From Longimicrobium sp. (GTDB lineage Bacteria > Gemmatimonadota > Gemmatimonadetes > Longimicrobiales > Longimicrobiaceae), in contig DASUYB010000065.1 in assembly GCA_036377595.1 (NCBI GenBank), positions 1 to 64,000 of the forward strand: a stretch of 64,000 nt of DNA. The letters are read 5' to 3'. Shown piece after piece: positions 10,639-58,835 of the stretch. The notes below the pieces were generated by a model. That model had not been told where the DNA came from, did not search any database, and saw only the letters and a program-made list of their open reading frames with translations. The position numbers and the translations under genes are program-made. Position 1 is the stretch's first letter. Every line of letters begins with the position of its first letter.

Positions 10639-13600
10639 ATGGACCGCAGGAACGTAGAGGACGTTTATCCGCTGTCGCCGCTGCAGCACGGGCTGCTCTT
10701 CCACGCCGTGCTGCGGCAGGGCGCGTACTGGGAGCAGTTCCCGCTGCTGCTGCACGGGCCCGTCGACGCGGACGCGCTGGAGCGCGCGTTCCGCGGCGTC
10801 GTGGCGCGCCATCCCGCGCTGCGCACCGGCTTCGTGTGGGAGAACGTCGCCCAGCCGCTGCAGGTGGTCTACCGCGTGGCCGAGCCGCCCGTCTCGCGGC
10901 ACGACTGGACGCGCGCGGCACAGTGGCGCGCGGAGCTGGCCGCGCTCCTCGACGCCAACCGCGCCGCCGCCCGCGACCTCAAGCGCGCGCCCCTGGTCCG
11001 GCTCGACCTCGCGCGCGTCGGCGCCGAGGAGACGGTGATGCTCCTCGGCTTCCATCACCTGGTGATGGACGGCTGGTCGTTTCCCATCGTCGTGGACGAG
11101 CTGATCCGGCTGTACCGCGCCGAGATCACCCATCACCCCGCGCAGCTGCCGCCGGCGCCGCGCTACCGCGCCTACGTGGCGTGGCTGCAGGCGCGCGACG
11201 CGTCGGCCGACGAGCGGTTCTGGCGCGCGGCGCTCGACGGCTTCGCCGAGCCCACGCCGCTCCCTCTCGACGGCAGCGGCGCCGGCGCCGGCGGCGACGA
11301 GCAGGCGCTGGAGACGCTCGTGGTGGGCGACGAGGCCAGCGCGCGCATGGCCGCCGTGGCGCGCGAGCTCGGCGTCACCCCCGCCACGCTGGCGCAGGCC
11401 GCCTGGTCGCTCGTCCTGGCGCGCTTCGCCGGCGCGGACGACGTGGCGTTTGGCACCACCATCTCCGGCCGCCCGCCCGAGCTGGCCGAGGTGGGGGGGA
11501 TGGTGGGGCTGTTCATCAACACCATCCCCGCCCGCGTCCGCCTGGACGCAGGCGCGCGGCTGGGCGAGTGGCTGCGCGGCATCCACCGCGCGCAGGCCGA
11601 GGCGCGCGAGCACGGCTACGCGTCGCTGGTGGACGTGCAGGGATGGAGCGCCGTGCCGCGCGACCGCTCGCTCTTCGAGTCGCTGCTGGTCTTCGAGAAC
11701 TATCCCACCCCCGCGGACGACGACGTGGGGCCGCGCGTGTCGCCGCTGCCCAGCGCGGAGCGCAGCACCTACGCGCTGACGCTGACCTGCGGCCCCGGCC
11801 CGCACGGCTTCGAGCTGCGGCTGGCGTACGAGACCGCGCGCTTCGACGCCGTCGCGGCGCGGCGCATCCTGGCCGCGACCGCTGCCGCGCTCGACGCCGT
11901 CCGCGGCGCCGCGGACGCGCGCGTGGGCGATCTCTCCGTGCTCACCGCGGCGGACCGCAAGCGGCTGGACGCCTGGTCGCGCGGGCCGGCGCTGGCCGTG
12001 ACCGACGCGCCGGTGCACGCGCGGGTGGCCGCGCAGGCCGCGCACACGCCCGATGCCGTGGCCGTGGACGCGCTCGACGGGGCGCTGACTTACACGCGGC
12101 TGGAGGCGCGCGCGCAGGCGGTCGCCGCGGCGCTGCGGGCGCGAGGCGTGGGGCGGGGCGCGCTGGTCGCCGTCTGCCTCGAGCGCGGGGCCGATCTTCC
12201 CGCGGCGCTGCTGGGGGTGATGAAGGCGGGCGCGGCGTACGTTCCCATCGACCCGTCGTATCCCGCCGAGCGCGTGCGGTGGATGCTGGAGGATTCCGCC
12301 GCGGCCGTCGTCGTCACCACGCCCGCCATCGCCGAGACGCTGCCCGAGACGGGGGCGGAGGTGATGGCGATCGACGGGATCGTTCCCGCTCCGGATCTCC
12401 ATCTCCCCCAGGTGGATGGGGACGACGTCGCGTACGTGGTCTACACCTCGGGGACGACGGGGCGGCCCAAGGGCGCGGCCATCCCGCACCGCGCGCTGGC
12501 CAACCACTGCGCGTGGATGCAGGACGCCTTCCCGCTCGGCCCGGGCGACCGCGTGCTGCAGAAGACGCCGGTGTCGTTCGACGCGTCGGTGTGGGAGTTC
12601 TGGGCGCCGCTCGTGGCCGGCGCCACGCTGGTGATGGGCGGCCCCGACGCGCACCGCGACCCCGCCGCGCTGGCGCGGGAGACGGCGGAGCGGGGGATCA
12701 CCGTCCTCCAGCTCGTTCCCGCGCTGCTGCGCGCCGTCGTCGACGAGCCGGCGTTCGCGCGCGCGACGCGGCTGCGCCGCCTCTTCGCCGGCGGCGAGGC
12801 GCTCCCCGCCGACCTCGCGCGCCGCGCCGCCGATCTCCATCCCCGGGCCGAGATCGTGAACCTCTACGGCCCGGCGGAGGCGTGCATCGACGCCGCCGCG
12901 CACCGGTTCGGCGGGGACGGCGGGGCGATGGTCCCGCTCGGGCGGCCCATCTCCAACCTGCGCGCGTACGTGCTCGACGGCGCGCTGTCGCCCGTTCCCC
13001 CCGGCGCGCCCGGCGAGCTCTATCTCTCCGGCCCGGCGCTGGCGCGCGGCTATCTCCATCGCCCCGCGCGGACCGCCGCGTCGTTCCTCCCCGACCCGTT
13101 CGCGGAGGCGCCCGGCGCGCGCATGTACCGCACGGGCGACGTGGCGAGATGGACCGAAGTGCGAGAGTGCGAAAGTGCGAAAGTGCGAGAGGGAGACGAT
13201 TCCACTTTCGCACCCTCGCACCCTCGCACTTTCGCACTCGACTTCCTCGGCCGCGCCGACGCGCAGGTGAAGCTCCGCGGCGTCCGCATCGAGCCGGGCG
13301 AGGTGGAGGCCGCGCTGGCCGCCCTCCCCGGCGTGCGCGAGGCCGCCGTCGCCCTGCGCGGCGAGCGCCTGGTCGCCTGGGTGGCGGGGGATGAGGATGC
13401 CGTCGCGGCCGACGCGCTGGCGCGGGCGCTCCGCGCTCGGCTCCCCGAGGCGATGGTGCCGTCGGTCTTCGCCACGGTCGACGCGCTGCCGCGGACGGCG
13501 GGGGGGAAGATCGACCGGCGCGCGCTTCCCGATCCCGCGCCCGCCGCGGCGGCCGAGTTCGTGGAGCCGCGCACGGAGACGGAGCGCGCCATCGCGGAGA

Positions 13601-13878: not shown

Positions 13879-13880
13879 CG

Positions 13881-16800
13881 ATGGCCGACGCGACCGACCG
13901 CCTGGCCGGCCTCTCGCCCGAGAAGCGCCGCCTGCTGGAGATGCGCCTGCGGATGGCCCGGCAGGCCGCGTCCTCCGGCGACCCCGGCACGCTCCAGCCC
14001 CGGGCGCGGCCCGACGGCACGGCGCCGCTCTCCTTCGCGCAGCAGCGGCTGTGGGTGCTGGAGCGGATGGCGCCGGGCGAGCCCACCTGGAACATCCCCA
14101 CGGCCATGCGCCTGCGCGGCGCGCTCGACATCTCCGCGCTGGAGCGCGCGCTCGACGCGCTGCGGCGGCGGCACGAGTCGCTGCGCACCACCTTCGCCGA
14201 GCGCGAGGGGCGGGCGGTGCAGGTCGTCCACCCCTTCGCCCCCGTCCCCCTCCCCGTTGACGACCTGTCCGGGCTCGGCCCGGAGGCGCGGGTGGCCGAG
14301 GCCACGCGGCGCGCGCAGGCCGACATGGACACGGGGTTCGACCTGGAGGCGGGGCCGCTCTTCCGCGCGCGGCTGCTGCGCCTGGGCGACGACGACCACG
14401 TGCTGCTGATGTGCGTCCATCACATCGTCAGCGACGGGTGGAGCATGGGAGTGATCCAGCGCGAGATGGAGCGGCTGTACGCCGCCTTCGCCGCCGGGCT
14501 TCCCGATCCCCTCGCGCCGCCGGCGCTGCAGTACGCGGATTACGCCGCCTGGCAGCGCGAGCAGCTGTCGGGCGAGCGGCTGCAGGGCGCGATCGACTTC
14601 TGGCGGCGCGCGCTGGACGGCGCCCCGCCCGCGCTGGAGCTGCCGGCCGACCATCCCCGCCCGCGCGCGCAGCGCAACCGCGGCGCGCGCACCTACGCCG
14701 GGCTCCCGCGCGAGGCCACCGAGCGGCTGCGCGAGCTGGCGCACGCCGAGAACGCCACCCTCTTCGCCGTGCTGCTGGCGGCGCTGCGCGTGGTCCTCAC
14801 CCGCTGGAGCGGCGAGGACGACGTGGTGATCGGCACCCCCGTGGCCGGCCGCACCAGGGTGGAGACGGAGGCGCTGGTCGGCTACTTCATCAACACGCTG
14901 GCGCTGCGCACGCCGCTGGCTGGCGACCCGTCGTTCCGCGCGCTCCTGCGCCGCGAGCGCGACACCGCGCTGGACGCATTCCAGCACCAGGAGCTCCCCT
15001 TCGAGCGCGTGGTGGAGGAGCTGAAGGTGCCGCGCGATCCGGCGCGCAGCCCCGTGTTCCAGGTGATGTGCTCGCTGGCCAACGCCACCGGCGGCGGCGC
15101 GCCCGCCTTCGCCGGGGTGAAGGTGGAGCCGGTGGAGGTGGAGCTCAGCTTCAGCAAGTTCGACCTCTCCTTCGAGGCGCACGACCTGGCCGAGGGGCTT
15201 GCGGTGGCCTGCGACTACGACACCGCGCTGTTCGAGAAGGCCACCGCGCAGGCGCTCGTGGACCACCTCGTCCTCGTCCTCGCCCGCGCCGCCGGGTCGC
15301 CCGACGCGGCGGTCTCCGCGCTGGCCGCCGGGCCGCGGGGCGTGGCGGAGACGGCGCTCGAGCGCGCCTCCGCCGCCTGCGCGCGCGGCGAGACGGTGCC
15401 GGCGCGCTTCCTGGCTTGGGCGCGGCGCGCACCGGACGCCCCCGTACTGGCTTGGCGCGATGGGGGGATGAGGTACGCGGAGCTCGCCGCGCGCTCCGGC
15501 GCGCTGGCCGCGGATCTCCGCGCTGCCGGCGCGCGCGCGGAATCCATCGTCGGCGTCTATGCGGACTGGTCGCCGGAGCTGGTGGTGGCGCTGCTGGGGG
15601 TGATGCGCAGCGGCGCCGCGTATCTCCCGCTCGACCCGTCCCTTCCCGCCGAGCGCATCGCGTGGCTGCTGGAGGATTCGGGCGCCCGCACGATCGTCAC
15701 CACGCCCGCGCTCCGCGATCGCATCTCCTCTGATCTCCCCGTCGTGCTGGTGGATGCGTCCGCGGCGGCGGGGGACGAGGGGGAGGGGGACGAGGAGATC
15801 GATCCCGCTTCCGCCGCGTACCTGCTGTACACGTCGGGGACGACGGGGACGCCGAAGGGGGTGGTCGTACCGCACGGCGCGGCGGCGGCGCACTTCGCGG
15901 CCGTCGCGGAGGCGTTCGGGCTGCGCGCGGACGACCGCGTGCTCGGCTTCGCGGCGCCGTCGTTCGATCCGTCGCTGGAGCAGGTGCTGGCGCCGCTGGC
16001 CGTCGGCGCGTCGGTGGCCGTGCGCGACGCGGAGCCGTGGGCGCCGGCGGAGCTGCCGGAGCGGCTGGCGGCGCTCGGCGTCACCGTCGCCAATCTCCCC
16101 ACCTCGTACTGGCACCAGCTCGTCCGCGACGCGGACGCCGCGGCGGCCACGAAGCAGGCGGTGCGCCTCCTCGTCGCCGGCGGCGAGGCGATGCACCCCG
16201 ACGCGGCGCGCGCGTGGGACGCCCTTCCCGGCGGCGCCGCGCTGCTGAACGGCTACGGGCCGACCGAGGCCGTCGTCACCGCCGCCGTCTTCCCCGTCCC
16301 CACCGGCTTCGCGGACGCCGATCCCGCGCGGATGCCGATCGGCGCGGCGGTGGGCGGGCGCGAGCCGCGCGTACTGGACGCGGCGCTGCGCCCGGTGCCC
16401 GACGGCGTGCCGGGCGAGCTGTATCTCGGCGGCTTCGCGCTGGCGCGCGGCTACCTCGGCCGCCCCGCGCTGACCGCGGCGAGCTTCGTCCCCGACCCGT
16501 TCTCCGCCACGCCCGGCGCGCGCATGTACCGCACGGGAGACCGGGTGCGATGGACGAAAGTGCGTGAGTGCGAAAGTGCGAAAGTGCGAGAGTGCGAAAG
16601 TGCGAAAGTGCGAGAGTGCGAAGGTGATCCGCACGGCGCCGAAACCACTTTCGCACCCTCGCACCCTCGCACTTTCGCACTCGATTACCTCGGCCGCGCC
16701 GACGCCCAGCTGAAGATCCGCGGCGCGCGCGTGGAGCCGGGCGAGGTCGAGGCCGCCCTGCGCGCGCTCCCCAACGTCGCCGACTGCGCGGTCGCCGCGC

Positions 16801-19800
16801 GCGCGGACGCCGCCGGGGCGATGCGGCTGGCGGCGTACGTCGTTCCCCGCGGCGCGTTCGATCCGGCGGCGGTGCGCGCGGAGCTGTCGGCGCGGCTCCC
16901 CGCCTATCTCGTCCCCTCCGCCATCGTCGCCGTCGACGCGCTGCCGCGCACGGCGACCGGGAAGATCGACCGCCGCGCCCTCCCGTCCCCCGACTTCGGC
17001 GCGGCGCGCGCTTCCCGCGGCGAGGCGCCCGCGACGCCCGACGAGGAGCTGCTGGCGGCGATCTGGCGCGAGGTGCTCTCCATCGACGCCGTGCACGCGG
17101 GCGACGACTTCTTCGAGCTGGGCGGCCACTCGCTCCTCGCCACCCAGGTGGTGACGCGCGTGCGGGCCGCGTTCGGGGTGGAGCTGCCGCTGCGCGCGGT
17201 GTTCGAGGCGCCCGTGCTGCGCGCGCAGGCCCGCCGCATCGCCGAGCTGCGCCTGGCGGGTGAAGGCGCGCCCGCCGGGCCCATCCCGCGCGCGGACCGC
17301 GCGCGGCCGCTCCCTCTCTCCTTCGCGCAGGAGCGCCTCTGGTTCATCGACCAGCTGGAGCCGGGGAACGCCGCGTACAACGTTCCCGTGGCGCTGGAGC
17401 TGCGCGGCGCGCTCGACGTGGCCGCGCTGGAGCGCGCGCTCGGCGAGGTCGTCCGTCGCCACGAGCCGCTGCGCACCGTGTTCGCGCACGACGGCGACGC
17501 GCCCACGCAGGTGGTCCAGCCGTTCGCCGGCTTCCCTCTCCCCGTCGCCGATCTCACGTCGCTGCAGGGAGATGAGAGAGAGGCGGAGACGGAGCGCATC
17601 CTCGCCGACGAGGCCACGCGCGCGTTCGACCTGGCCACCGGGCCGGTGCTCCGCGCGCGGCTGCTGCGGCGGGGGGATGGAGATCACGTCCTCTCCCTCG
17701 TCCTGCACCACGTCGCGACGGACGCGTGGTCGTCGGGGGTGCTCTTCGGCGAGCTGGCGGCGCTGTACGACGCCTTCCGGCGGGGCGACGAGTCGCCGCT
17801 CGCCGATCTCCCCGTGCAGTACGCGGACTTCGCGGCGTGGCAGCGCGGCTGGCTGCGCGGCCCGGCGCTGGAGCGGCAGGCGGCGTACTGGCGCCGCAGG
17901 CTGGCCGGCATCCCCGCGGTGCTCGACCTCCCCGCCGACCGGCCGCGGCCGGCGGTGCAGGACCTGGCCGGCGCGCTCCTCCCCTTCTCCCTCCCCGCGG
18001 ACGCGGTGGCCGGCGCGCGCGCGCTGGCCCGGCAGGAGGGCGCCACGCCGTTCATGGTGCTGCTGGCCGCCTTCTCCGCGCTCGTCCACCGGCTGACGGG
18101 CGAAGAGGACGTGGTCGTCGGCACGCCCATCGCCAACCGCATGCGGCCGGAGCTGGAGCGGCTGGTCGGCTTCTTCGACAACACGCTGGCGCTGCGGGCC
18201 GACGTGTCGCGCGACCCGGGCTTCCGTGCGCTCCTGGCCCGCGTGCGCGAGACCACGCTCGAGGCGTACGCGCACCAGGACGTGCCCTTCGAGAAGCTGG
18301 TCGACGAGCTGAAGACCGAGCGCAGCCTGAGCCACACCCCGCTCTTCCAGGTGATGCTCACGCTGCAGAACGCGCCGACGGCATCCGCCGTCCCCGCGCT
18401 CGGCGAGGTGGAGGTTCTTCCGCGCGCGGTGGAGACGGGGACGTCGCGCTTCGACCTGACGCTGATCCTGGCCGAGTCGCCCGACGGCGGTATGGGCGGA
18501 TGGGCCGAGTACGCGACCGCGCTCTTCGACGAGACGTCGATCGAGCGGCTGACGCGGCACCTCGGCGCGCTCCTCGGCGCCGCCGTCGCCGCGCCCGACG
18601 CGCCGCTCTCGACCCTGTCCTTCCTGTCCCAGGAGGAAGAGGAGCAGGTCGTCCGCGGCTTCAACGCCACCGACCGCCCGCGCGCGGCGGAGACGGTGCA
18701 TGCGCTCGTTTCCGCGCAGGCGGCGCGCACGCCGGACGCGGTCGCCGTCGAGCAGCGCGGCGAGCGGGTGACGTACGCCGAGCTGGAAGCGCGCGCCAAC
18801 CGCCTCGCGCACCGGCTGCGGCGGCTGGGCATGGGCCCCGACGCGCGCGTGGCCGTCGCCATGGAGCGGTCGATCGAGATGGTTGTGGCCACTTTGGCCA
18901 CTCTCAAGGCGGGCGGCGGCTACGTCGCGGTCGACCCGAACTATCCCGCGGACCGCGTGGCCTACATGCTCGCGGACAGCCGCGCCGCGGTCGTCGTCAC
19001 CACCTCCGCCGTGGCCGCGCGGCTGCCGGCGAGCGGCGCGGCGGTGCTGCGCGTCGACGCCGAGCGCGACGCCATCGCCGCCGAGCCGCCGGACGACCCG
19101 CGCGTGCCGGTCGATCCCGAGAACCTCCTCTACGTCCTCTACACCTCGGGGTCGACGGGGAAGCCGAAGGGCGCCGCGCTCCCGCACCGCGCGCTCGCCA
19201 ACCTCCTCCGCTGGCAGACGGAGCGGTGGGGGATCGGCGGGGAAGGGGATGGAGCCGGTGTGGAGGGGGCGAATGAATTCGCTGCAACAACCACACGAAG
19301 TCTGCCTTCGCAGACTACCGGCGACGGCGCGGACGCCGCCGCGGCGCGCGCGACGGCCCCCGCGCGGACGCTGCAGTTCGCGTCCCTCTCGTTCGACGTG
19401 TCGTTCCAGGAGATCTACTCGACGTGGGCGAGCGGCGGCACGCTCGTCCTGATCGACGACGACACGCGGCGCGATGCCGAGGCGCTGATCGCGCACCTGC
19501 GGGAGCATCGCGTCGAGCGGCTCTTCCTCCCCTTCGCCGCGCTGCAGAACCTGGCGGAGACGGCGGAGGGGATGGACGCGCGCCTCCCCGATCTCCGCGA
19601 GGTGATCACGGCGGGCGAGGCGCTGCGGTCTACGCCGCAGCTGCGCGCGTTCTTCGCGGCCAATCCCCAGGCGCGGCTGGAGAACCAGTACGGGCCGTCG
19701 GAGACGCACGTCATCTCCGCCCACCTGCTGGAGGGTGACACGGAGGCGTGGGCCGCGCTCCCGCCGATCGGCGCGCCGGTGGACAACACGCGGCTGTACG

Positions 19801-24035: not shown

Positions 24036-24072
24036 CCCTCCCCGGGTAGCCCTCCCCGGGTAGCCCTCCCCG
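24031..24072. repeat. Three tandem 14-bp units spanning the NRPS-C stop codon
   Basis: GGTAGCCCTCCCCG is repeated three times. The TAG stop of NRPS-C (24033-24035) lies inside the first unit. A similar GGGTAGCCCTCCCC junction supplies the stop of PKS-2 at 29103-29105. Confidence 0.85.
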
Positions 24073-30795: not shown

Positions 30796-31282
30796 GAACG
30801 GGCGGGGATAAGGGAGATTGGGGGATAGAGGGAGACGCGGGGGAAAGGCATCGTGCCCGGCGCGGCGCGGAGGCCCTCTCCCCCCGCCCCCTCCCCCAAA
30901 ACCGACTGGGGGAGGGGGAGACCTCAGCGCGGGGTCGGATTCGGTTCGGACGGCGGGCGGTCGCGCGGCCGCGAGCGGCCCCCTCCCCCGGCCCCTCCCC
31001 CGCTGCGCAGGGGAGGGGAGAACAAAGCGTGGGGGCCGCGATGGAGCAGCCCACGGGCCTCGCGGTGCACCGGAGGTTTGACCGCACCGCAGGCGGGGCG
31101 GCAGACGGGAGCCCTACCCTCTCCCGTTATCGGGAGAGGGCTTGCGCTCTAAGGCGCAGGGTGAGGGGGGCGGCCGCGGAGACGTACGCGAGCAGGGCCG
31201 GGACGTCTCCCCGGCAGACGCAGGATCGAGGATTCGACGATTTCGGCTGTGGAACGATCACGTTGACGCGAGCCATAGGACC
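30796..31282. repeat. Spacer fkbH-like/NRPS-D: hairpin repeat, R2, R3, R4 variant
   Basis: No gene is seen. A GC-rich hairpin of the CCTCCCCCAAAACCGACTGG type lies at about 30883-30925; this family also occurs in NRPS-F and at 59681. It is followed by R2 (about 30950-31035), R3 (about 31050-31110) and an R4 variant (about 31112-31168). R1 is absent here, unlike the spacers that follow a megaenzyme. About 110 unique bases precede NRPS-D. Confidence 0.75.
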
Positions 31283-36067: not shown

Positions 36068-36084
36068 TCCAAAAAGAAATGGGC

Positions 36085-36144
36085 TCACGCAGAGGAGCAG
36101 AGGCAGCAGAGGAAGTTCTCTGCTCCCTCTGCTGCTCTGCGTGA
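36085..36144. repeat. 60-bp inverted repeat between NRPS-D and NRPS-E
   Basis: An almost continuous palindrome starts TCACGCAGAGGAGCAGAGG and ends with the reverse complement CTCTGCTGCTCTGCGTGA, meeting near AAGTTCTC. It is the only notable feature of the 128-bp spacer, which lacks the R1-R4 mosaic. It could act as an mRNA hairpin or processing site, or be one more dispersed repeat; there is no T-tract after it. Confidence 0.85.
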
Positions 36145-36195
36145 CACCATCAACCAGATCGGCCGACGCGACGACGCCGGTCGCGATGACGTGAT

Positions 36196-46020
<9,825 letters not shown>

Positions 46021-46466
46021 GAGCCCTCACCTGGCATCGCGCCCTCTCCGGCATCGCGCCCTCTCCGGCTCGCCTAGGCTCGCCACCTCTCCCCTACCGG
46101 GAGAGGTAGGGGTGAGAACATCGGCGCGGGCGGCGTGGATTCGCGTGGCCGCGGACTGGCCCCCTCCCCCGGCCCCTCCCCCGCTGCGCAGGGGAGGGGA
46201 GAACAAAGTGGGGGGTACGTGACGGTGCCGACCTCCGGCCTCGCGGTGCACCGGAGCCTGTAACCGAGCCGCAGGCTGCGCGGCAGACCGGAACCCAACC
46301 CTCTCCCGGTACGGGAGAGGGCGAGCGCTCTAAGGCGCGGGGAGAGGGCGGACGGAAGGCGGCATTGCAGCAGTCGGTTGGTCTCCGGCCTCGCGGAGAG
46401 GGCGGGACGGGCGCGCGCTGACGGTGCGGATCTGCGCACGTGAACGGGTTACCTGTTGAAGTCTAG
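46021..46466. repeat. Spacer NRPS-E/NRPS-F: R1-R2-R3-R4 mosaic
   Basis: No gene is seen. A CATCGCGCCCTCTCCGG unit is repeated twice just after the stop. Then come R1 (about 46060-46120, with a GAGAGG variant stem), R2 (about 46125-46210), R3 (about 46231-46283), R4 (about 46287-46375) and a fragment of R3. The ribosome binding site before NRPS-F is weak (TTGAAGTCTAG). Confidence 0.75.
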
Positions 46467-49400: not shown

Positions 49401-52400
49401 TTCGCACTCTCGCACCCTCGCACTCTCGCACTCGAGTACCTCGGCCGCGCCGACGACCAGGTGAAGGTCCGCGGCTTCCGCATCGAGCTGGGCGAGATCG
49501 AGTCGGTGCTGCTCGAGCATCCGCGCGTCCGCGAAGCCGTCGTCCTCGCCCGCGGCTCCGGCGACGACAAGCGCCTCGTCGCCTGGGTCGTCCCGTCGAA
49601 CGGAGACGCTGCGGTTCCCCCTCCCCCAGTCGGTTCCGGGGGAGGGGGTGGCGAGCGTAGCGAGCCGGGGGAGGGGGCGTCCGCAGCGCGGCTGACGGCG
49701 GAGCTGCGCGCGCACCTGTCGTCGCATCTCCCCGACTACATGGTGCCGTCCGCCTTCGTGGCGATGGACGCGCTGCCGCTGACCCGCAACGGCAAGGTCG
49801 ACCGCCGCGCGCTGCCGGAGCCGGACCTCGCCGCGTCGGCCGTGGAGTACGTCGCGCCGCGCACGCCGGACGAGGAGACGCTCGCCGGCATCTGGGCTCC
49901 ACTACTGGGAGTGCCGCGCGTCGGGGCGGAGGACGAGTTCTTCGCGCTCGGCGGGCACTCGCTGCTGGCCACGCGCGTCATCACCCGCGTCCGCGAGGCG
50001 TTCGGCGTCGACCTCCCGCTCCGCGCCGTCTTCGAATCTCCCACCCTTTCCGCGCTCGCCGCCGAGATCGGCCGGCTGGCGGGGACGGGGACGGAGGCGC
50101 CGCCCATCGTCCCCGTCGACCGCACGGGCGACCTGCCGCTGACCTTCGCGCAGGAGCGGCTCTGGTTCGTGGACCGGATGGAGCCCGGCAGCATGGTCGT
50201 CACCATGGGCTCCGTCTACCGCCTCTCGGGCGCGCTGGACGCCGCCGCGCTCGAGCGCGCGCTGGGCGAGGTGGTGCGCCGCCACGAGTCGCTGCGCTCC
50301 GTCTTCCCCGAGGTCGACGGCACGCCGGTGCAGCGCGTGCTCCCGTGGCGCGCGTACCATCTCCCGACGACGGACCTAAAGGCGCTGCCGGAGGACGAGC
50401 GGGGCGCCGCGGCCGGGCGCATCGTGCGCGAGCCGTTCACCACGCCGTTCGACCTGGCGCGCGGGCCGCTGCTGCGCGCGGTGCTGGTGCGGCTGGACGA
50501 GGGCGAGCACCTGTTCGCCTTCAACCTCCACCACGTGGCGGGCGACGGGTGGTCGCTCGGCATCTTCTTTGGCGAGCTGGCGGCGCTCTACGACGCGTTC
50601 GCGCGCGGCGAGCCGTCGCCGCTCGCCGAGCCGGCGGTGCAGTTCGGCGACTACGCCGCGTGGCAGCGCGCGTGGCTGCGGGGCGAGGTGCTGGAGCGGC
50701 AGCTCGCCTACTGGCGCGGCAATCTGGCCGGCGCGCCGCCGCTGCTGGAGCTGCCCACCGACCGCCCGCGCCCCGCCGTCCAGAGCTACCGCGGCGCCGA
50801 CGAGCATGCCGTCCTTCCCGCGGACGAGCTGGCGGCGATCCACGCGCTCGGCCGCGCCGAGGGGGCCACGCTGTTCATGACGCTGCTGGCGGCGTTCTCG
50901 CTCGTCCTCGGCCGGCTGGCGGGGCACGACGACGTGGTGGTGGGCACGCCCATCGCGGGGCGCACACGCGCGGAGACGGAGCGGCTGATCGGCCTCTTCC
51001 TCAACTCGCTGGCGATGCGCACGGACCTCGGCGGCGACCCCTCGTTCCGCGAGTTGCTCCGCCGCGTGCGCCGCACCACGCTCGACGCGTACGCGCACCA
51101 GGACGTGCCCTTCGAGTTGCTGCTGGCCGAGCTGCAGCCCCGGCGCAGCGTGAGCCACACCCCCGTGTTCCAGGTGATGCTGAACCTGCAGAACTACGAG
51201 GGCGGGGAGATGCGGTTCGGCGGGGTGGAGGTCGAGGGATACGGCCACGCGGGCGAGCAGACCAGCAAGTTCGACCTCACGCTGTACGCCACGGAGATGC
51301 CGGACGGCCTGGCGCTGCGCCTGGTGTACGCGCGCGACCTGTTCGGCGCCGCGCGGATGCGCGAGCTGCTGGACCAGCTCCGCGCCGTCCTCGCGCAGGC
51401 CGCGGCGGACCCGGACGCCGCCACGTCGCGCATCACGCTGCAGACGGAGATGGCGCGCGCGGTGCTCCCCGACCCCGCGGCGGAGCTGTCGAACGCGTGG
51501 CGCGGCAGCGTCCCCGAGCTGTTTGCCCGCCGCGCGTGCGAGGCGCCGCACGCCCTCGCCGCCGAGGATCCGCGCGAGCGCTGGACCTACGCCGAGCTCG
51601 ACGCCGACACGGCGGAGATCGCGAACGACCTCGTCGCCGCCGGCTTGGGGAGCGGCGACGTCGTCGCGATCTGGGGCCACCGCGGCACGGCGCTGGTCCG
51701 CGCGCTGCTGGCCACGCTGCGCTCTGGCGCCGCCTTCCTGGTGCTCGACCCCGCGTATCCGCCCGCGCGCCTGGCCGACTACGTCCGCATCGCCCAGCCC
51801 AAGGCTTTCCTGGAGATCCCCGCCGCCGGCGACATCCCCGCCGAGCTCGAATCCGCACTCGCCGAAACCGTCCGCTGCGGCATCACCATCTGCGGAAAAC
51901 CAGGCGCCGTACCCGCGGGACGTCATCCTGAGGCCGGCCACACCGAACCCGCGTCCGCACCAGAGGATGCAGGCCGAAGGATCTATAGCCCGGGGGAGCA
52001 CACAGCCGGGGACGCGAGCGAAAGCCACCCCGGCGCCGCAGTAATCCACGGCAGCGCCGAAGCCAGCCCGGCCGCGCCGGCATCGGGCGGCTACCTCTCC
52101 CGGTACGGGAGAGGTGGCGAGCCTAAGCGAGCCGGAGAGGGCGCCCCAGCCGGAGAGGGTGCGCTGCCGGAGTCGCGCGCCGAGATCGGCCCCGACACCC
52201 TCGCCTACCTCTCCTTCACCTCGGGCACCACGGGCACGCCCAAGGCGGTGATGGGCCGCCACGGCTCGCTCACGCACTTCACCCCGTGGCTCGCGGAGAC
52301 GTTCGGCCTCTCCGCCGGCGACCGCTTCAGCCTGCTGAGCGGCCTGGCGCACGACCCGCTCCACCGCGACGTGTTCACGCCGCTGCAGCTGGGCGCCGCC

Positions 52401-55400
52401 GTGGTCGCGCCCGAGCCCGACGAGGTCGCCGCGCCCGGCTATCTCGCGCGCTGGATGCGCGAGGCCGGCATCACCGTGGCGCACCTGACGCCCGCGATGG
52501 GCCAGCTCATCGCCGACGTCCCCGGCGGGGTGGAGCGCGCCGCGCCGGTCGAATCCCTGCGCCGCGCCTTCTTCGTCGGCGACGTGCTCACGCGCGGCGA
52601 CGTGGAGCGCCTGGGCCGCCTCGCGCCCAACCTCACCGTCGTCAACTACTACGGCTCCACCGAGACGCAGCGCGCCGTCGCCTACCACGTCGTGCAGATG
52701 GACGAAGATGGTGATGGAGATGCCGCCCGCGAGGTGATCCCGCTCGGGCGTGGCATCCCCGGCGTGCAGCTGCTCGTCCGTTCCACGAGCGGCGGAATGG
52801 CGGGGATCGGCGAGGTGGGCGAGGTGTGGCTGCGCAGCCCGCACGTGGCGCTCGGCTACCTGGGCGACGCGGACCTCACGGCATCGCGCTTCGTGCGCAA
52901 CCCATGGCGCGGCGATGCGTGGGACGTGCTGTACCGCACCGGCGACCTCGGCCGCTACCGCCCCGACGGCGAGGTGGAGCCGATGGGCCGCGCCGACCAG
53001 CAGGTGAAGGTCCGCGGCTTCCGCGTGGAGCTGGGCGATATCGAGGCCGCCCTCGCCCGCCACCGGCAGGTGCGCGAAGCCGTCGTGATCGCCCGCGGCG
53101 ACGCAGCCGACCGCCGCCTCATCGCCTACATCGTCCCCCAGCGCCTCTCCGGCGGTGATCCGCAGGACGCGCTTCAGGCCGCGCCGACCCCGTCCCTCCC
53201 CCAGTCGGTTTTGGGGGAGGGACAGGCGAGGAACGAGCCAGGGAGAGGGCCTCGCGAGGTCGCGGCCGCGCAGGTGCCCGTGGAGGGCGCGAGTCCCGGC
53301 CCTGACCCCGAGACCCTTCGCGCCCACCTCCGGGCATCGCTGCCGGAGTTCATGCTCCCCGCCGCGTTCGTCACGCTCGAGCGGCTGCCGCTGACGCAGA
53401 ACGGCAAGGTCGACCGCCGCGCGCTCCCCGATCCCGCGCCGGAGCACGCGGAGACGCGCACCGCGCCGCGCACGGAGACGGAGCGCGCCGTCGCGGAGAT
53501 CTGGCGCGAGGTGCTGGGTCACGAGGTGGGGGTGGAGGACGATTTCTTCGCCAGCGGCGGCCATTCGCTCCGCGCGACGCAGGTGCTGTCGCGCATCGAG
53601 CATCGCTTCGCCGTGAGGCTGCCGGTGAAGACGATCTTCGCCGCGCCCACCGTCGCCGCGCTCGCCGCCGAGATCGACGCGCGCGGCGGCGACTTCATCG
53701 CATCCCCCGACACCGGCGAGTTCGCGTCCGAGTATGGCGAGGGCGTCTACCCGCTGTCGTTCGCGCAGCAGCGACTCTGGCTGCTCGACCGTTTGGAGCC
53801 GGGGAGCGCCGCGTACAATCTCCCCGCCGCGTACCGCATCCGCGGCGCGCTCGACGCCCCCGCGCTGGAGCGCGCGCTCGGCGAGATCGTTCGCCGCCAC
53901 GAGACCCTCCGCACGCGCATCGAGACGCGCGGTGATGACGAGCCCGTGCAGGTCGTCGACCCCGCGGACGATTTCCATCTCCCGATCATCGAAAAGCCGG
54001 AGATAGCGGACGACGAGCTGCGCCGCATCGCCACGGACGAGGCCGCGCGCCCGTTCGACCTCGCGCGCGGCCCCCTCTTCCGCGCGATGCTCGTCCGCAT
54101 CGCCGCGGACGACCACGCGCTGCTCTGGACGCTGCATCACGCCATCAGCGACGGCTGGTCGACGGGCATCCTGCTGCGCGAGCTGAACGTGCTGTACTCG
54201 GCGTTCGCAGCCGACCCACTCAGCACTCAGCACTCAGCACTCAGCACTTCCGTACCCGATCTCCCGATCCAGTACGGCCAGCACGCCGTCCGCCAGCGCC
54301 GCCGCCTCTCCGGTGCCGCGCTCGACGAGCAGGTGCGCGTGTGGAAGGAGGCGCTCGCCGGCGCGCCGTCGCTGCTGGATCTGCCCACGGATTGGCCGCG
54401 CCCGGCGGTGCAGAGCTATCGCGGCGCCACGCTCGGCTTCGGGCTTCCGGACGAGCTGATGGCGCGCGTCGCCGGGCTCGCGCGGCGCGAGGGGGCCACG
54501 CCGTTCATGGTGCTCCTGGCCGCCTACCAGGCCGTGCTCTCGCGCTGGTCGGGGCAGAACGACGTCGTGGTCGGCACCCCCGTGGCCAACCGCACCTCGG
54601 CCGACGTGGAGCCGCTGATCGGCTTCTTCGCCAACACCCTGGCGCTGCGCGGCGATCTGTCCGGCGCGCCCACCTTCCGCGAGCTGCTGGCGCGCGTGCG
54701 CGAGGCGTCGCTCTTCGCGTTCGACCGCCAGGACCTGCCGTTCGAGAAGCTGGTCGAGGAGCTGCAGCCCGAGCGCAGCCTCGCGCATTCGCCCGTCTTC
54801 CAGGTGATGTTCGCGCTGCAGAACGTGCCGCGCGAAGGCCCGCGCCTGGACGGGCTCGAGATGTCGCCCATCGGCCGCGCCGGCGAGGCGGCCAAGTTCG
54901 ACCTCTCGCTCACGCTGGTGCAGGCGCCCGACCGCACCTTCGGCGCGGCCGAGTACGCGACCGACCTGTTCGACGAGGCCACGATCCAGCGCTTCGTCGG
55001 CCACTTCGCCACGCTGCTGGACGCGGCCACGCAGCAGCCCGACGCGCGCGTCGCCGATCTCCCGCTGATGCCCGACGCGGAGCGCGACGAGCTGATGCGC
55101 ATCTCCGCCGGCCCGGAGGTCGCGCGCGAGCCGTCGCTCACGCTGCACGGGCTGTTCGAGGCGCAGGCCGCGCGCACGCCCGACACCGTCGCCGTCACCT
55201 TCGAGGGAAGGTCGCTGACGTACGCGGAGATGGATGGCCGGGCCAATCAGCTCGCGCATCTCCTCCGTGCGCGCGGCGTCGGCCCGGAGACGCCCGTCGC
55301 AGTCTTCATGGAGCGTTCGCTGGAGATGGTGATCGCGCTCTACGGGGTGCTCAAGGCGGGGGGATGCTACATCCCCGTCGACCCCGAGTACCCGGCCGAG

Positions 55401-57830
55401 CGCATCGCGTACATGCTGGAGGATTCCGCCGCGCGCGTCGTCCTCACGCAGCAGCGGTGGATGGAGATGCTTCCCGCCCCGGCCGAAGCCATCGCGCTCG
55501 ACGCGCCCGGCGTGCTCGACGGCTTCCCCTCATCGTCCGTCGATGGAGATGCCGATCCCGACGCGCTGGCGTACGTGATCTACACGTCGGGATCGACCGG
55601 CCGGCCGAAGGGCGCGGGGAACGCGCACCGCGGCATCGTCAACCGCATCCTGTGGATGCAGGAGACGTTCGCCCTCGGCGCGGACGACGTGGTGCTGCAG
55701 AAGACGCCGTTCTCGTTCGACGTCTCCGTCTGGGAGTTCTTCTGGCCGCTGATGGCCGGCGCGCGGCTGGCCGTGGCCGCGCCCGGCGCGCACCGCGACC
55801 CCGCGCGGCTGACGGAGACCATCGCGCGCGAGCGGGTGACGACGCTGCACTTCGTCCCCTCCATGCTGCGGCTCTGGCTGGACGAGGCGGCGCCGGAGCG
55901 CGTCCCCACCCTCCGCCGCATCGTCGCCAGCGGCGAGGCGCTGCCGCCGGAGCTGCGCGACCGCTTCTTCACGCGACTCCCCGGCGTCGAGCTGCACAAC
56001 CTCTACGGCCCCACCGAGGCCGCCGTCGACGTTACCTGGCACCCGTGCGTGCCGGGCGAGGCGGCGGTGCCCATCGGCCGCCCGGTGGCCAACACGCGTA
56101 TCCACGTGCTCGACGCGCGCGGCAACCCGTGCCCGCCCGGCGTCCCCGGCGAGCTGCACATCGCCGGCGTGCAGGTGGGCCGCGGATACCAGCATCGCCC
56201 CGCGCTCACCGCCGAGCGCTTCGTCCCCGACCCGTTCGCCGATCATCCCGGCGCGCGCATGTACCGGACTGGGGATCGGGCGAGGTGGACGGAAGTGCGA
56301 AAGTGCGAAAGTGCGAAGGTGCGAAAGCACGACGGTGAAGACGCGGCCTCTCCCAGCGCCGAGACCACTCTCGCACCCTCGCACTCTCGCACTTTCGCAC
56401 TCGAGTACCTGGGGAGATACGACTTCCAGGTGAAGATCCGCGGCCTCCGCGTGGAACTGGGCGAGATCGAGGCCGCGCTCGCCGCCGATCCGTCCGTCCG
56501 CGAAGCCGTCGTCGCCGCGCGGGGGGAGGGCGAGGACGCGCGCCTCGTCGCGTGGGTCGTCCCCGCGGATGGAGATGGGATTTCCGCCGATGTGCTGCGC
56601 GAGCGCCTCGGTCGCGCGCTGCCGCCGTACATGGTGCCGGGCGCGTTCGTGGAGATGGACGCGCTCCCGCTCACCCCCAGCGGCAAGGTCGACCGCAAGT
56701 CGCTCCCCGATCCCGACATGCGCGCGCGGCCGGATGCGTTCGTCGCGCCGTGGACGGCCACGGAGATCGAGCTCGCCGACGTCTGGCGCGAGGTGCTGGG
56801 CGTGGAGCGCGTCGGCGCCGCGGACGACTTCTTCGCGCTGGGCGGGCACTCGCTGCTGGCGGTGAAGCTGGCGTCGCGCATCCGCCAGCGCTTCGGGCGC
56901 GAGCTGCCGCTGGCGGAGCTCTTCCGCAGTCGCACCCTGCGCGCGCTCGCCGCCGCCCTCGAGCGCGATGGTGGTGGCGCGCCCGCGTCGCCGCTGGTCG
57001 CGCTGCTCGCGGGCGGCACGCGGACGCCGATCTTCTGCGTGCACCCGGCCGGCGGCACCGTCTTCCGCTACGCCGACCTGTCGCGCCACCTGGGCCCCAG
57101 CCAGCCGTTCTACGGCCTCCAGGCGCAGGGCGTGAACGACGACGCCGAACCGCTGGCCACGGTCGACGAGATGGCGGAGCGCTACCTCGACGCCATCCGC
57201 GACGCCTTCCCGCGCGGCCCGTACGTGCTCGCCGGCTGGTCGGCGGGCGGCGTGATCGCGTACGAGATGGCGCGGCGGCTCGGGGAGATGGGCGAGGCCG
57301 TCCCCCTCGTCGTCCTCCTCGACACCCACGCGCCGAATGAGGACTGGGAGACGCGGGCGCCCGACGAGGTGGACCTGTATCTCCGCTACACGCACGACCT
57401 TGCCGGCGTCGGCCCCGAGCGGCTGGCGGAGCTGGAGATGGAGCTGCGCCCGCTCGCGGGCAACGCGCGCCTCCCCGCGCTGGCGGCGTGGATCGCGCGC
57501 AGCGGCCTCCCCGTGGCCGAGGCCACGCTCGCGCAGATCGGCCGCAGCGTGCGCGTCTTCGCCACCACCATGCGCGCCGTCAACGAGCACCGTCTCGGCG
57601 CCTACGCGGGCGACGTCCTTCTCGTCGAGGCCGCCGACGGCATCCCCGGCCTCCCCGCGCCCGAGGGCGGCATCGCCGCCGCCTGGCGCCCGCACGTGCG
57701 GGGGAGCCTGGAGGTGCGCACCGTCCCCGGCACCCACGGCACCTTCATCAGCGACCCGTATGCGGCGGAGGTGGCGCGGGTGCTTGAAGAATGTTTTGCG
57801 CGTTCAGGGAATCCCGCCGTTGTGATCTGA
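46467..57830 (+). CDS. Non-ribosomal peptide synthetase, three modules plus thioesterase (C-A-T)x3-TE (NRPS-F)
   Basis: This 3787-aa terminal subunit has module 1: C about 30-470 (HHVVGDG), A about 505-1110, T Ser1165; module 2: C about 1220-1655 (HHVAGDG), A about 1680-2315, T Ser2367; module 3: C about 2425-2870 (HHAISDG), A about 2890-3410, T Ser3462; thioesterase about 3510-3785. Codes: A1 DFWNIGMVHK (exact Thr code), A2 DPRHFVYRAK (Lys2/aminoadipate-type motifs, LAHDPLHRDVF and ETQRAV), A3 DVWHVSLVDK (Ser-like). The TE has nucleophile Ser3592 (GWSAGG), candidate Asp3619 (LLDTHAP) and His3757 (GTHGTF), and should release or cyclise the product. The N-terminus LSPEQRKLLALRLRMQ may dock. 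This protein carries the most in-frame repeats: palindromes in A1 and A3, a NEFAATTT element and GC-rich hairpin in A1, about 290 bp of mixed repeats plus a hairpin element in A2, and an ACTCAGC array in C3. Confidence 0.94.
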   Translation: MTEVSKKLGELSPEQRKLLALRLRMQKAKESAPAPQEREGGVFPLSFAQQRMWLLDRLDPGATAYNLAFPWRLRGPLDVPALERAVAEIVRRHETLRTRIDVRDGEPAQVVEPFREWTLPVVDRPIPEAEREAELARIATEEANRPFDLAAGPLFRALLVRAADDDHLFVWSVHHVVGDGWSTGVFDRELKALYEAFAAGRSSPLPPLPIQYGDFAVRQRERLSGEALERQVAWWKDRLAGAPALLELPTDRPRPAVRSDRGDVVGFEVEGVAAAVEALAREADATPFMVLLAAWQALLGRWSGQDDVLVGTPIASRTTPDVEPLIGYFANTLVLRGDLGGDPTFRALLARVREATLGAYEHQDLPFEKLVEEINPGRSLSHTPLFQVAFVFQNLAAATGITEQRRLGDAAMEPAGRGRETAKFDLTLTLVQDSGRTLGSLEYAAELWDRATVERMIGHLGVLLREALRRPDARISDLPLLMDAERVELEARARPAAAFAADEPLHVRFAAQAARSPDAVAATYEGERLTYAELDARANRLAHHLAARGTRPGDLVGLCVERSLETVVGILGILKAGAAYLPLDPAYPDERIAHMLADSGARLVLATADLASRVSGDGITAILLDSDRAEIDAHPSIPPAVEVDGDALAYVIYTSGSTGRPKGVQVTHANVMRLFAATDEWFGFGADDVWTLFHSYAFDFSVWEIWGSLLYGGRLVVVPFYVSRNPDAFRDLLARERVTVLNQTPSAFRQLIRADEEAWGDRSRSASGGQAPARGSRANEFAATTTQSPPSRTGALAGPAEADPDAGSNAHPAAASGLALRCVIFGGEALDPASLRGWVERHGDEAPRLVNMYGITETTVHVTYRVIREADVLAGSASPIGIPIPDLSVQVLDPRGRPVPVGVVGEMYVGGAGVARGYLGRPALTAERFVPDPYPPVPGARLYRSGDLARWTEVRECEGAKVRERDAAADASSGAESTFALSHPRTLALEYLGRADDQVKVRGFRIELGEIESVLLEHPRVREAVVLARGSGDDKRLVAWVVPSNGDAAVPPPPVGSGGGGGERSEPGEGASAARLTAELRAHLSSHLPDYMVPSAFVAMDALPLTRNGKVDRRALPEPDLAASAVEYVAPRTPDEETLAGIWAPLLGVPRVGAEDEFFALGGHSLLATRVITRVREAFGVDLPLRAVFESPTLSALAAEIGRLAGTGTEAPPIVPVDRTGDLPLTFAQERLWFVDRMEPGSMVVTMGSVYRLSGALDAAALERALGEVVRRHESLRSVFPEVDGTPVQRVLPWRAYHLPTTDLKALPEDERGAAAGRIVREPFTTPFDLARGPLLRAVLVRLDEGEHLFAFNLHHVAGDGWSLGIFFGELAALYDAFARGEPSPLAEPAVQFGDYAAWQRAWLRGEVLERQLAYWRGNLAGAPPLLELPTDRPRPAVQSYRGADEHAVLPADELAAIHALGRAEGATLFMTLLAAFSLVLGRLAGHDDVVVGTPIAGRTRAETERLIGLFLNSLAMRTDLGGDPSFRELLRRVRRTTLDAYAHQDVPFELLLAELQPRRSVSHTPVFQVMLNLQNYEGGEMRFGGVEVEGYGHAGEQTSKFDLTLYATEMPDGLALRLVYARDLFGAARMRELLDQLRAVLAQAAADPDAATSRITLQTEMARAVLPDPAAELSNAWRGSVPELFARRACEAPHALAAEDPRERWTYAELDADTAEIANDLVAAGLGSGDVVAIWGHRGTALVRALLATLRSGAAFLVLDPAYPPARLADYVRIAQPKAFLEIPAAGDIPAELESALAETVRCGITICGKPGAVPAGRHPEAGHTEPASAPEDAGRRIYSPGEHTAGDASESHPGAAVIHGSAEASPAAPASGGYLSRYGRGGEPKRAGEGAPAGEGALPESRAEIGPDTLAYLSFTSGTTGTPKAVMGRHGSLTHFTPWLAETFGLSAGDRFSLLSGLAHDPLHRDVFTPLQLGAAVVAPEPDEVAAPGYLARWMREAGITVAHLTPAMGQLIADVPGGVERAAPVESLRRAFFVGDVLTRGDVERLGRLAPNLTVVNYYGSTETQRAVAYHVVQMDEDGDGDAAREVIPLGRGIPGVQLLVRSTSGGMAGIGEVGEVWLRSPHVALGYLGDADLTASRFVRNPWRGDAWDVLYRTGDLGRYRPDGEVEPMGRADQQVKVRGFRVELGDIEAALARHRQVREAVVIARGDAADRRLIAYIVPQRLSGGDPQDALQAAPTPSLPQSVLGEGQARNEPGRGPREVAAAQVPVEGASPGPDPETLRAHLRASLPEFMLPAAFVTLERLPLTQNGKVDRRALPDPAPEHAETRTAPRTETERAVAEIWREVLGHEVGVEDDFFASGGHSLRATQVLSRIEHRFAVRLPVKTIFAAPTVAALAAEIDARGGDFIASPDTGEFASEYGEGVYPLSFAQQRLWLLDRLEPGSAAYNLPAAYRIRGALDAPALERALGEIVRRHETLRTRIETRGDDEPVQVVDPADDFHLPIIEKPEIADDELRRIATDEAARPFDLARGPLFRAMLVRIAADDHALLWTLHHAISDGWSTGILLRELNVLYSAFAADPLSTQHSALSTSVPDLPIQYGQHAVRQRRRLSGAALDEQVRVWKEALAGAPSLLDLPTDWPRPAVQSYRGATLGFGLPDELMARVAGLARREGATPFMVLLAAYQAVLSRWSGQNDVVVGTPVANRTSADVEPLIGFFANTLALRGDLSGAPTFRELLARVREASLFAFDRQDLPFEKLVEELQPERSLAHSPVFQVMFALQNVPREGPRLDGLEMSPIGRAGEAAKFDLSLTLVQAPDRTFGAAEYATDLFDEATIQRFVGHFATLLDAATQQPDARVADLPLMPDAERDELMRISAGPEVAREPSLTLHGLFEAQAARTPDTVAVTFEGRSLTYAEMDGRANQLAHLLRARGVGPETPVAVFMERSLEMVIALYGVLKAGGCYIPVDPEYPAERIAYMLEDSAARVVLTQQRWMEMLPAPAEAIALDAPGVLDGFPSSSVDGDADPDALAYVIYTSGSTGRPKGAGNAHRGIVNRILWMQETFALGADDVVLQKTPFSFDVSVWEFFWPLMAGARLAVAAPGAHRDPARLTETIARERVTTLHFVPSMLRLWLDEAAPERVPTLRRIVASGEALPPELRDRFFTRLPGVELHNLYGPTEAAVDVTWHPCVPGEAAVPIGRPVANTRIHVLDARGNPCPPGVPGELHIAGVQVGRGYQHRPALTAERFVPDPFADHPGARMYRTGDRARWTEVRKCESAKVRKHDGEDAASPSAETTLAPSHSRTFALEYLGRYDFQVKIRGLRVELGEIEAALAADPSVREAVVAARGEGEDARLVAWVVPADGDGISADVLRERLGRALPPYMVPGAFVEMDALPLTPSGKVDRKSLPDPDMRARPDAFVAPWTATEIELADVWREVLGVERVGAADDFFALGGHSLLAVKLASRIRQRFGRELPLAELFRSRTLRALAAALERDGGGAPASPLVALLAGGTRTPIFCVHPAGGTVFRYADLSRHLGPSQPFYGLQAQGVNDDAEPLATVDEMAERYLDAIRDAFPRGPYVLAGWSAGGVIAYEMARRLGEMGEAVPLVVLLDTHAPNEDWETRAPDEVDLYLRYTHDLAGVGPERLAELEMELRPLAGNARLPALAAWIARSGLPVAEATLAQIGRSVRVFATTMRAVNEHRLGAYAGDVLLVEAADGIPGLPAPEGGIAAAWRPHVRGSLEVRTVPGTHGTFISDPYAAEVARVLEECFARSGNPAVVI
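48799..48845 (+). repeat. NEFAATTT element, coding copy in NRPS-F A1
   Basis: It is read RANEFAATTTQSPPSRT and ends in the hairpin AGTCCGC-CTTC-GCGGACT (48828-48845). It sits in a loop enlarged to roughly 48745-48920, between the segment TPSAFRQL and RCVIFGGEAL, a different A-domain loop from the NRPS-C copy. Confidence 0.85.
49323..49434. repeat. In-frame A7-A8 palindrome, copy 8 (NRPS-F A1)
   Basis: It is translated VRECEGAKVRERD, loop AAADASSGAES, then TFALSHPRTLAL, directly before EYLGRADDQVK. Confidence 0.9.
49615..49679. repeat. In-frame GC-rich hairpin element in NRPS-F A1
   Basis: CCCCCTCCCCCAGTCGG pairs with a following GGGGGAGGGGG and continues with GGCGAGCGTAGCGAGCC. It is read as low-complexity VPPPPVGSGGGGGERSEPGEG, in the C-terminal subdomain between VAWVVPSNGD and LTAELRAHL. 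The same hairpin family lies at 30883, 53191 and 59681. Confidence 0.85.
51918..51990. repeat. In-frame copy of a dispersed repeat in NRPS-F A2 (shared with 59531-59605)
   Basis: The ends GACGTCATCCTGAGGCCGGCC and AGGCCGAAGGATCTATAG match, in reverse orientation, the ends of the intergenic segment 59531-59605. The middle parts differ. It is translated as part of a non-conserved loop before the A3 motif of the adenylation domain. Confidence 0.8.
52093..52142 (-). repeat. R1 intergenic repeat inside NRPS-F A2, reverse orientation
   Basis: The hairpin ACCTCTCCCGGTACGGGAG is followed by GTGGCGAGCCTAAGCGAGCC, the reverse complement of the R1 element of the spacers (GGCTCGCTTAGGCTCGCCAC). It is read in frame as [18 protein letters not shown]1 is therefore not confined to spacers. 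Confidence 0.85.
53191..53256. repeat. In-frame GC-rich hairpin element in NRPS-F A2
   Basis: The sequence is nearly the same as the non-coding copy at 59681-59744, including the tail with GACAGGCG, CCAGGGAGAGGGCCTCGCG. It is read PSLPQSVLGEGQARNEPGRG, between YIVPQRLSGGD and RAHLRASLPEFM, the same A-domain loop that holds the element at 49615 in A1. Confidence 0.88.
54218..54248 (+). repeat. ACTCAGC heptamer array inside NRPS-F C3
   Basis: Four complete ACTCAGC units plus ACT are read LSTQHSALST. They lie between LNVLYSAF and VPDLPIQYG, where the other C domains have a short loop. Confidence 0.88.
56292..56403. repeat. In-frame A7-A8 palindrome, copy 9 (NRPS-F A3)
   Basis: It is translated VRKCESAKVRKHD, loop GEDAASPSAET, then TLAPSHSRTFAL, before EYLGRYDFQVKIRG. 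Confidence 0.9.
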
Positions 57831-58694: not shown

Positions 58695-58714
58695 AGGTTC
58701 CTCCAAGACTGTTC

Positions 58715-58748: not shown

Positions 58749-58835
58749 CGAGAACTCCCGTGGGCCGTCAGGTACGAATCGAGCATCACCGCGCAAACAA
58801 CCACCAGTGAACCGACCAGGCGAAGGAACCCACGT

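Follow-up and report, generated by a model that had tools for sequence, protein, structure and literature searches.

How does one palindromic repeat come to be read as protein at a single turn of many adenylation (A) domains? The question is raised by a 64,000-nucleotide stretch of Longimicrobium sp. (GCA_036377595.1, DASUYB010000065.1, positions 1 to 64,000; hereafter the window), which is contig C65 in a draft assembly of 208 contigs totalling 7.2 Mb. It holds both polyketide synthase (PKS) and non-ribosomal peptide synthetase (NRPS) genes: among eight open reading frames (ORFs) scanned with Pfam, one carries ketosynthase (KS), acyltransferase (AT), ketoreductase (KR) and carrier domains and another condensation (C), A and carrier domains. 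The window contains 12 AMP-binding_C domains, corresponding to 12 NRPS A domains. Nine of the A domains have an in-frame palindrome in place of the short hairpin turn between the motifs A7 (YR[TSV]GDxxRW) and A8 (GRxDxQ[VL]K). The inserts substitute for the turn and are not mere additions to it, the spacing from the GD of A7 to the GR of A8 being 13 residues in canonical domains versus 36–60 residues in the nine insert-bearing ones. All nine were located where the first-pass annotation of this DNA had placed them, in an open frame between A7 and A8. In what follows the window's genome is called G000, and G003, G009, G027, G033 and G042 are the congeners (other genomes of its genus) that bear the insert. 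The twelve A7-A8 segments of the window are:

13153..13239 (+), octamer palindrome in frame at the A7-A8 turn, with A7 at 13126; RNA-folded
16554..16682 (+), octamer palindrome in frame at the A7-A8 turn, with a long left array
19980..20075 (+), octamer palindrome in frame at the A7-A8 turn; RNA-folded
23199..23357 (+), variant-octamer (GTGCGGAA/GTGCGTGA) palindrome in frame at the A7-A8 turn
33950..34063 (+), octamer palindrome in frame at the A7-A8 turn; RNA-folded
38746..38850 (+), octamer palindrome in frame at the A7-A8 turn
42058..42153 (+), octamer palindrome in frame at the A7-A8 turn, in the domain modelled by AlphaFold2; RNA-folded
49320..49433 (+), octamer palindrome in frame at the A7-A8 turn
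56289..56402 (+), octamer palindrome in frame at the A7-A8 turn; RNA-folded
8022..8099 (+), canonical A7-A8 segment without insert, whose nearest G033 domain on the tree bears a composite insert
45304..45381 (+), A7-A8 segment without insert, A7 reading YLTGD
52932..53009 (+), A7-A8 segment without octamer insert

The inserts had all been described as palindromes of GTGCGARA octamers, which holds for eight of them; the one at 23216 is built of the variants GTGCGGAA and GTGCGTGA, which define a second insert subtype that is present elsewhere in G000 too. GTGCGARA occurs 52 times in the window compared to an expectation of 5.09 ± 2.05, an excess of about tenfold that none of 100 shuffles reached. 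The five inserts that were folded as RNA form hairpins of -59.3 to -71.5 kcal/mol (z from -6.9 to -11.4). The repeat is by no means confined to A domains: the 24-mer (GTGCGARA)3 has 231 exact places in G000 (none for the reversed control), and many copies outside A domains (non-A copies) share the same build of array, spacer and reverse-complement array, both orientations being present in 29 of 41 non-A elements and the remainder being one-sided arrays. By its copy number, its palindromes and its hairpins it is a high-copy genomic palindromic repeat. Among 146 sampled genomes of the order, the 24-mer was found in eight, six of them among the ten genomes of the genus (G000 included) and two in other genera of the family. 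Long minisatellite-like octamer arrays were also observed (L092:2335-2564, L093:2219-2474 and L218:5-116); such arrays may break assembly, and L218 sits at a contig end.

How much does an open reading frame through such a repeat tell? Because 8 is coprime to 3, a change of frame in an octamer array only rotates its cycle of eight residues, and all six frames stay open in arrays of 30,016 of the 65,536 possible octamers (46%). For octamers of given composition the figure is 400 of 1120 for GTGCGAAA and 440 of 840 for GTGCGAGA; arrays of GTGCGTGA are not open in this sense. Each of the 28 non-A palindromes tested had two or more open frames. A constant peptide is therefore expected, the repeat is easily read through, and the sole frame requirement on an insert is a total length that is a multiple of three. 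The recurrence of one reading frame, which had been pointed out for the nine inserts, is thus largely trivial as information, and frame conservation as a sign of selection was rejected because octamer arrays are open in most frames anyway. Among 53 clusters from fetched G000 stretches (one edge cluster was dropped), codon scores placed 24 of 24 A-domain copies in a continuous frame and found no continuous frame for 26 of 29 non-A clusters. The other three were called continuous, each unconvincingly: L005 scores badly on its downstream side, L027 has a stop upstream, and L069 is a chance occurrence of octamers within an insert-less A domain.

The insert extends well beyond the window. In G000, 24 of 89 A7-A8 segments carry it and 65 manage without, counting the segments found by motif in fetched stretches, a procedure that may miss some A domains, plus L084_13733, whose A8 (LARIDEQAK) escaped the motif search and which was added by hand to the insert comparison; the G000 search with an A-domain or insert query scored 150 of 464 candidates. 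AMP-binding_C has 117 matches in the 7.2 Mb of this genome, indicating a rich repertoire, and most of those with long ORFs resemble NRPS modules. Insert-bearing segments make up 27 of 50 fetched from G033, 5 of 13 from G009, 2 of 12 from G027, 1 of 7 from G042 and 1 of 6 from G003 (the last insert being short and degenerate), fractions that differ from genome fractions as loci were chosen by their match to an insert or A-domain query. No insert was present in 13 fetched segments from G015, G018, G036, G048 and G052 (G048 is a congener, the four others belong to other genera), nor in the congeners without octamer arrays (G021, G024, G040 and G048), of which G024 and G040 gave no A-domain match at all and G021 gave one. 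A search of the phylum with the second subtype, covering 395 genomes, gave matches at E ≤ 1e-8 in 4, each a member of the window's genus; it scored at most 16 candidates per genome and is not exhaustive as to absence elsewhere. Altogether, six genomes of one genus carry the A7-A8 insert, and it was found in none of the other genera searched. On this confinement among the candidates scored, together with the absence of the insert from two solved homologs with printed alignments, the idea that it is a normal conserved part of A domains in unrelated bacteria was rejected. Assembly error was likewise rejected as unlikely, because the same kind of insert occupies the same site in five congeners.

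As the first-pass annotation had proposed, the structure of one insert-bearing domain was predicted: AlphaFold2 modelled the domain of the 42058 insert, from 12 window sequences, with a mean predicted local distance difference test (pLDDT) score of 83.7, and the model matches NRPS A domains in the PDB. Its residues 414–421 and 424–436 have pLDDT below 50, between strands 399–411 and 439–446, and the insert block as such (pLDDT 43–53) is predicted to be disordered; the match to the two solved homologs ends at about 409–411 and resumes at 441. All 55 insert-bearing domains retain A3 and A5, and under strict patterns A8 is found in 50 of them and A10 in 47, compared to 117 (A3), 113 (A5), 116 (A8) and 102 (A10) of 120 insert-less domains. 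Among the eight A10 misses four retain the GK and four have no GK within the 110 residues inspected; in one of these four, at 49293, NGKVDR is displaced downstream by an insertion. Stop codons occur in no insert-bearing domain and in one insert-less domain. The 24 copies of G000 are therefore in-frame copies in intact protein genes, and the likeliest reading of the insert is a floppy loop, tolerated on the turn before the A8 hinge.

The distribution and kinship of the inserts bear on how they reached so many domains. Insert state was followed over 175 A domains on a tree made by FastTree with the linker removed (14 domains truncated at the ends of loci were excluded, and duplicate rows were left out of later counts). 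It changes 35 times, at least 31 of these changes being forced by well-supported branches; the shuffled mean is 46.7 changes and none of 500 shuffles was as low as 35, which indicates some clustering also. Inserts can be 0.92–0.93 identical in domains whose cores are 0.54–0.65 identical, and inserts at 93% identity occur with core identities of about 58–61%. The earlier remark that descent from one module is not obvious is supported by this tree scatter and by an insert identity far above that of the cores. Compared by whole-element local scores, which were adopted after a comparison of centres failed to discriminate, 23 of 24 G000 inserts find their best match in another A insert, ahead of all 41 non-A elements from that genome, and 18 of 24 are closer to the A insert of another species than to those elements; in a smaller comparison with 19 non-A elements, 22 of 23 were nearer an A insert and 19 of 23 nearer one from another species. 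A 73-nt query of the A type found full-length matches above 79% in A domains only (40 of 135 candidates scored). Since A inserts resemble one another more than they resemble the non-A copies examined, independent insertion from that pool is improbable for most of them, and spread between A domains fits these comparisons better, although some tests disagree. The proposal of a repeat family targeting NRPS hinges is not supported as worded, A inserts being more like one another, often across species, than like the non-A copies examined.

Comparison with G033 offers a closer view of the inserts. Thirteen A domains of this congener have linkers of 71–97 residues, which harbor a composite insert in which a second palindromic family, GTCCCTCCCCCAGGCAGTTTTGGGGGAGGGAC plus a tail, is nested within the octamer insert. 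Several window modules are tree sisters of G033 modules whose copies bear the composite insert, and in two apparent ortholog pairs it faces no insert in G000 (window 8022 and L143_6322; L084_9104 and L142_5947). Within 15 nt of the insert, the bases that differ from the insert-less ortholog (14 positions in the two pairs) are shared more with composite-insert paralogs than with insert-less G033 domains (0.64 vs 0.23, 0.75 vs 0.43, 0.33 vs 0.03 and 0.59 vs 0.24), and beyond 15 nt the two pairs gave no consistent excess. Additionally, the A7 arginine is encoded by AGA or AGG in 16 of 25 insert-bearing and 2 of 20 insert-less G033 domains (P = 0.0003) and, more weakly, in 4 of 23 versus 0 of 38 in G000 (P = 0.017). 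By simple patterns 25 inserts are of type 1 throughout and 19 of type 2, and the few mixed ones (such as G033 L135_10636 and L139_15675) are the outcome that recombination between inserts would give.

These observations appear reasonably well accounted for, if far from conclusively, by one or a few founder insertions followed by short-tract transfer between A domains. A genome-wide palindrome (GTGCGNRA array, spacer, reverse-complement array) would have entered the A7-A8 beta-turn of one A domain in an ancestor within the genus and been tolerated there as a floppy loop, owing to the hairpin form of the turn and to an array that most frames can read through. From there a non-reciprocal transfer, of the insert plus a flank of at most about 15 nt, would have carried it into many non-orthologous A domains of the same genomes, by short-tract gene conversion that used the conserved motifs A7 and A8 or by an equivalent way of copying. 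Meanwhile, array length and octamer type would have drifted and become locally homogenised, and further repeats may have landed inside the octamer insert later. We infer that the founders were single or few, that gene conversion was the route and that the insert is neutral for enzyme function. A bolder version makes the A7-A8 turn a homing-like site: the coding palindrome would spread through NRPS modules by copying itself, with a few flanking bases, into empty A7-A8 sites of the same genome, and would itself offer further repeat families a place to land, repeat DNA thus steadily becoming new protein at the hinge; this we regard as a tentative and rather doubtful possibility.

Several results weigh against founder insertion with short-tract transfer. 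The left junction falls at 14 different distances among 59 inserts, the flank test draws on the 14 positions given above, and AGA or AGG at the A7 arginine is absent from other congeners (0 of 6 domains with insert and 0 of 28 without); moreover, AGA at this codon could derive from the octamer itself instead of from co-transfer. A comparison restricted to the centres of the inserts gave no separation of A from non-A copies: 17 of 44 A centres were nearer an A centre of another genome and 28 of 44 nearer one of their own genome, and among non-A centres 12 of 26 were nearer a non-A centre. Averaged sliding identity profiles around the insert showed no identity peak for insert-bearing pairs. Finally, the exception among the 24 G000 inserts, L075_1865, is a near-exact match to a non-A copy (L174:2014-2086, contig C145 of G000) that has no A-domain flank; this copy suggests that the octamer element can also move alone, as a unit, and some A-domain copies may be direct insertions.

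The C145 copy leads to the rival that survives best, namely repeated independent insertion of a mobile element resembling repetitive extragenic palindromic (REP) sequences or miniature inverted-repeat transposable elements (MITEs), moved in trans and preferring the A7-A8 sequence. Such targeting would agree with a nearly fixed right junction, which lies at 2 nt (37 inserts) or 10 nt (19 inserts), one octamer apart, in 56 of the 59, with a shared flank of no more than 15 nt, and with octamer-tagged insertions that never occur in other A-domain loops, unlike those of other repeat families. The microhomology pointed out earlier, of GTGCG in A7 with the octamer, would be a putative cause, beside a left junction that varies widely and a right one that hardly does. 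Y1 transposase (Y1_Tnp) genes are also present in 9 of 10 genomes of the genus, but they occur with or without octamer arrays, which shows no link between the two. Given in addition the preference of A inserts for one another over the 41 non-A copies of their own genome, we consider this rival unlikely. Vertical descent of an ancestral insert-bearing domain that was duplicated into modules, with loss of the insert in others, finds some agreement in several apparent G000-G033 ortholog pairs (tree sisters) that both bear inserts and in an insert state more clustered than in shuffles. Nevertheless, it must reckon with the 35 changes on the tree, with losses precise enough to restore the canonical turn every time, with near-identical inserts in domains of 0.54–0.65 core identity and with apparent orthologs that differ in insert type or presence, as in the two pairs named above; it is already disfavoured and quite improbable. 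Least probable of all is a selected feature of enzyme or mRNA (such as a spacer at the hinge, a hairpin that pauses translation, or a tag for recombination between core and C-terminal subdomain), for which the very stable hairpins of the folded inserts, the kept frame and main motifs, the recurrent site and the weaker upstream-downstream similarity correlation of insert-bearing than of insert-less pairs (0.26 vs 0.43 in G000; 0.24 vs 0.40 in G033) could speak, against the predicted disorder of the insert, its absence from the two solved homologs, the 65 G000 segments that do without it, and a breakpoint test in which best-neighbour agreement between upstream and downstream parts was no lower with the insert (14 of 55) than without it (29 of 120).

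Beyond what the first-pass annotation had reported, two further repeat families, checked for frame in NRPS loci only, lie in frame in the window's A domains:

49610..49690 (+), second family (CCTCCCCCAG...GGGGGAGG hairpin) in frame in the A8-A10 loop, copy at 49620
53178..53268 (+), second family in frame in the corresponding A8-A10 loop of a domain without octamer insert, copy at 53195
19270..19320 (+), third family (CGAATGAATTCGCNGCAACAAC...) in frame in a loop of the A-domain core
48799..48850 (+), third family in frame in a different loop of the A-domain core

The second family, which at 53178-53268 folds as RNA with z -3.4, has 70 places in G000, 29 in G033, 17 in G027 and 11 in G021 at up to two mismatches. 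As a genome-wide CCTCCCCC/GGGGGAGG hairpin repeat it has further window copies at 30890 and 59685, the latter past the last NRPS ORF; just past the NRPS genes there is also a PrlF antitoxin match, at the C-terminal end of the ORF 58356-59552 (-). The third family is found at 115 places in G000, 137 in G033 and 128 in G009 at up to one mismatch; its peptide reads ANEFAATTT, and another window copy lies at 60924-60945. Its RNA fold in the window (48795-48880) is not unusually stable (z -1.0, 28 of 200 shuffles as stable). In the 175 aligned A domains there are 68 insertions of at least 14 residues, of which 62 carry motifs of the three families and six do not, as judged by a simple motif tagging that may catch chance matches (perhaps two rows of G042 L159). 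All 54 octamer-tagged insertions are at A7-A8, and the eight tagged with the other families are spread over about four other loops. A peptide pattern, RHPEAG..ASA..AGRRIY, is common to insertions in the window domain with A7 at 52932 and in the L074 domain with A7 at 13393, and suggests a fourth in-frame repeat family.

How does this system compare with known ones? REP sequences and bacterial interspersed mosaic elements (BIMEs), with their REP-associated Y1 transposases (RAYTs), are short palindromic high-copy repeats. The present repeat is alike in being short, palindromic and of high copy number in a genus with Y1_Tnp proteins, and it differs by its tandem octamer arms; Y1_Tnp proteins occur with or without the arrays. 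Interrupted A domains contain a folded catalytic auxiliary domain (for example PDB 5wmm); in both cases material is inserted without destroying the fold, whereas here it is a repeat-encoded loop at A7-A8, predicted to be disordered. PARCELs are likewise coding repeats with dyad symmetry in the DNA that are shuffled within genomes, but they are tandem repeats of 25 residues in ORFs without assigned function, unlike a single insert in a catalytic domain. Wollamide and desotamide NRPSs also underwent exchange between A domains of one genome, with a predicted tract covering the substrate-binding part from A2 to A5/A6, compared to the A7-A8 insert and at most about 15 nt of flank here (PMC9205934). 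In nematomorph mitochondria, long inverted repeats lie in functional coding genes and both arms encode conserved protein, whereas here the arms encode an added loop (PMC6649704).

The closest parallel remains the one drawn at first, to Rickettsia palindromic elements (RPEs), which are described as palindromic repeats, some of them lying in frame within protein genes and persisting as additional peptide (PMC10969869). In-frame palindromic repeats retained as added peptide are comparable, and we have here a real instance of palindromes that became protein at a single site, related in kind to RPEs. Membership in an RPE family proper was rejected, the host lying outside Rickettsia and the repeat being set apart from those families by description: RPEs are units of about 150 bp, and here octamer arrays of variable copy number and other sequence occupy one hot site in one domain family across dozens of paralogs, with signs of spread between domains and a nested second family (PMC10969869). 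Nor was the RPE-like pattern of copies in unrelated genes seen, no convincing in-frame octamer copy in such a gene being present in the sample of 53 clusters. We found no report of palindromes of this kind in NRPSs in the open-access literature searched, which is no proof that none exists; in particular, two aspects were not found described, one hot site common to dozens of paralogous domains and the signs of domain-to-domain spread.

For the genus, then, the 24 insert-bearing A domains of G000 and the 27 of 50 fetched in G033 are many natural replicates for studying how repeats enter proteins, and the system also suits asking how the modules of an assembly line swap small pieces of DNA. The A7-A8 turn, adjoining the A8 hinge, seems able to accommodate about 10 to 84 additional residues and could serve for tagging or engineering NRPSs. 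Protein growth of the RPE kind can also be put to the test in a host other than Rickettsia, in a domain whose activity is simple to assay.
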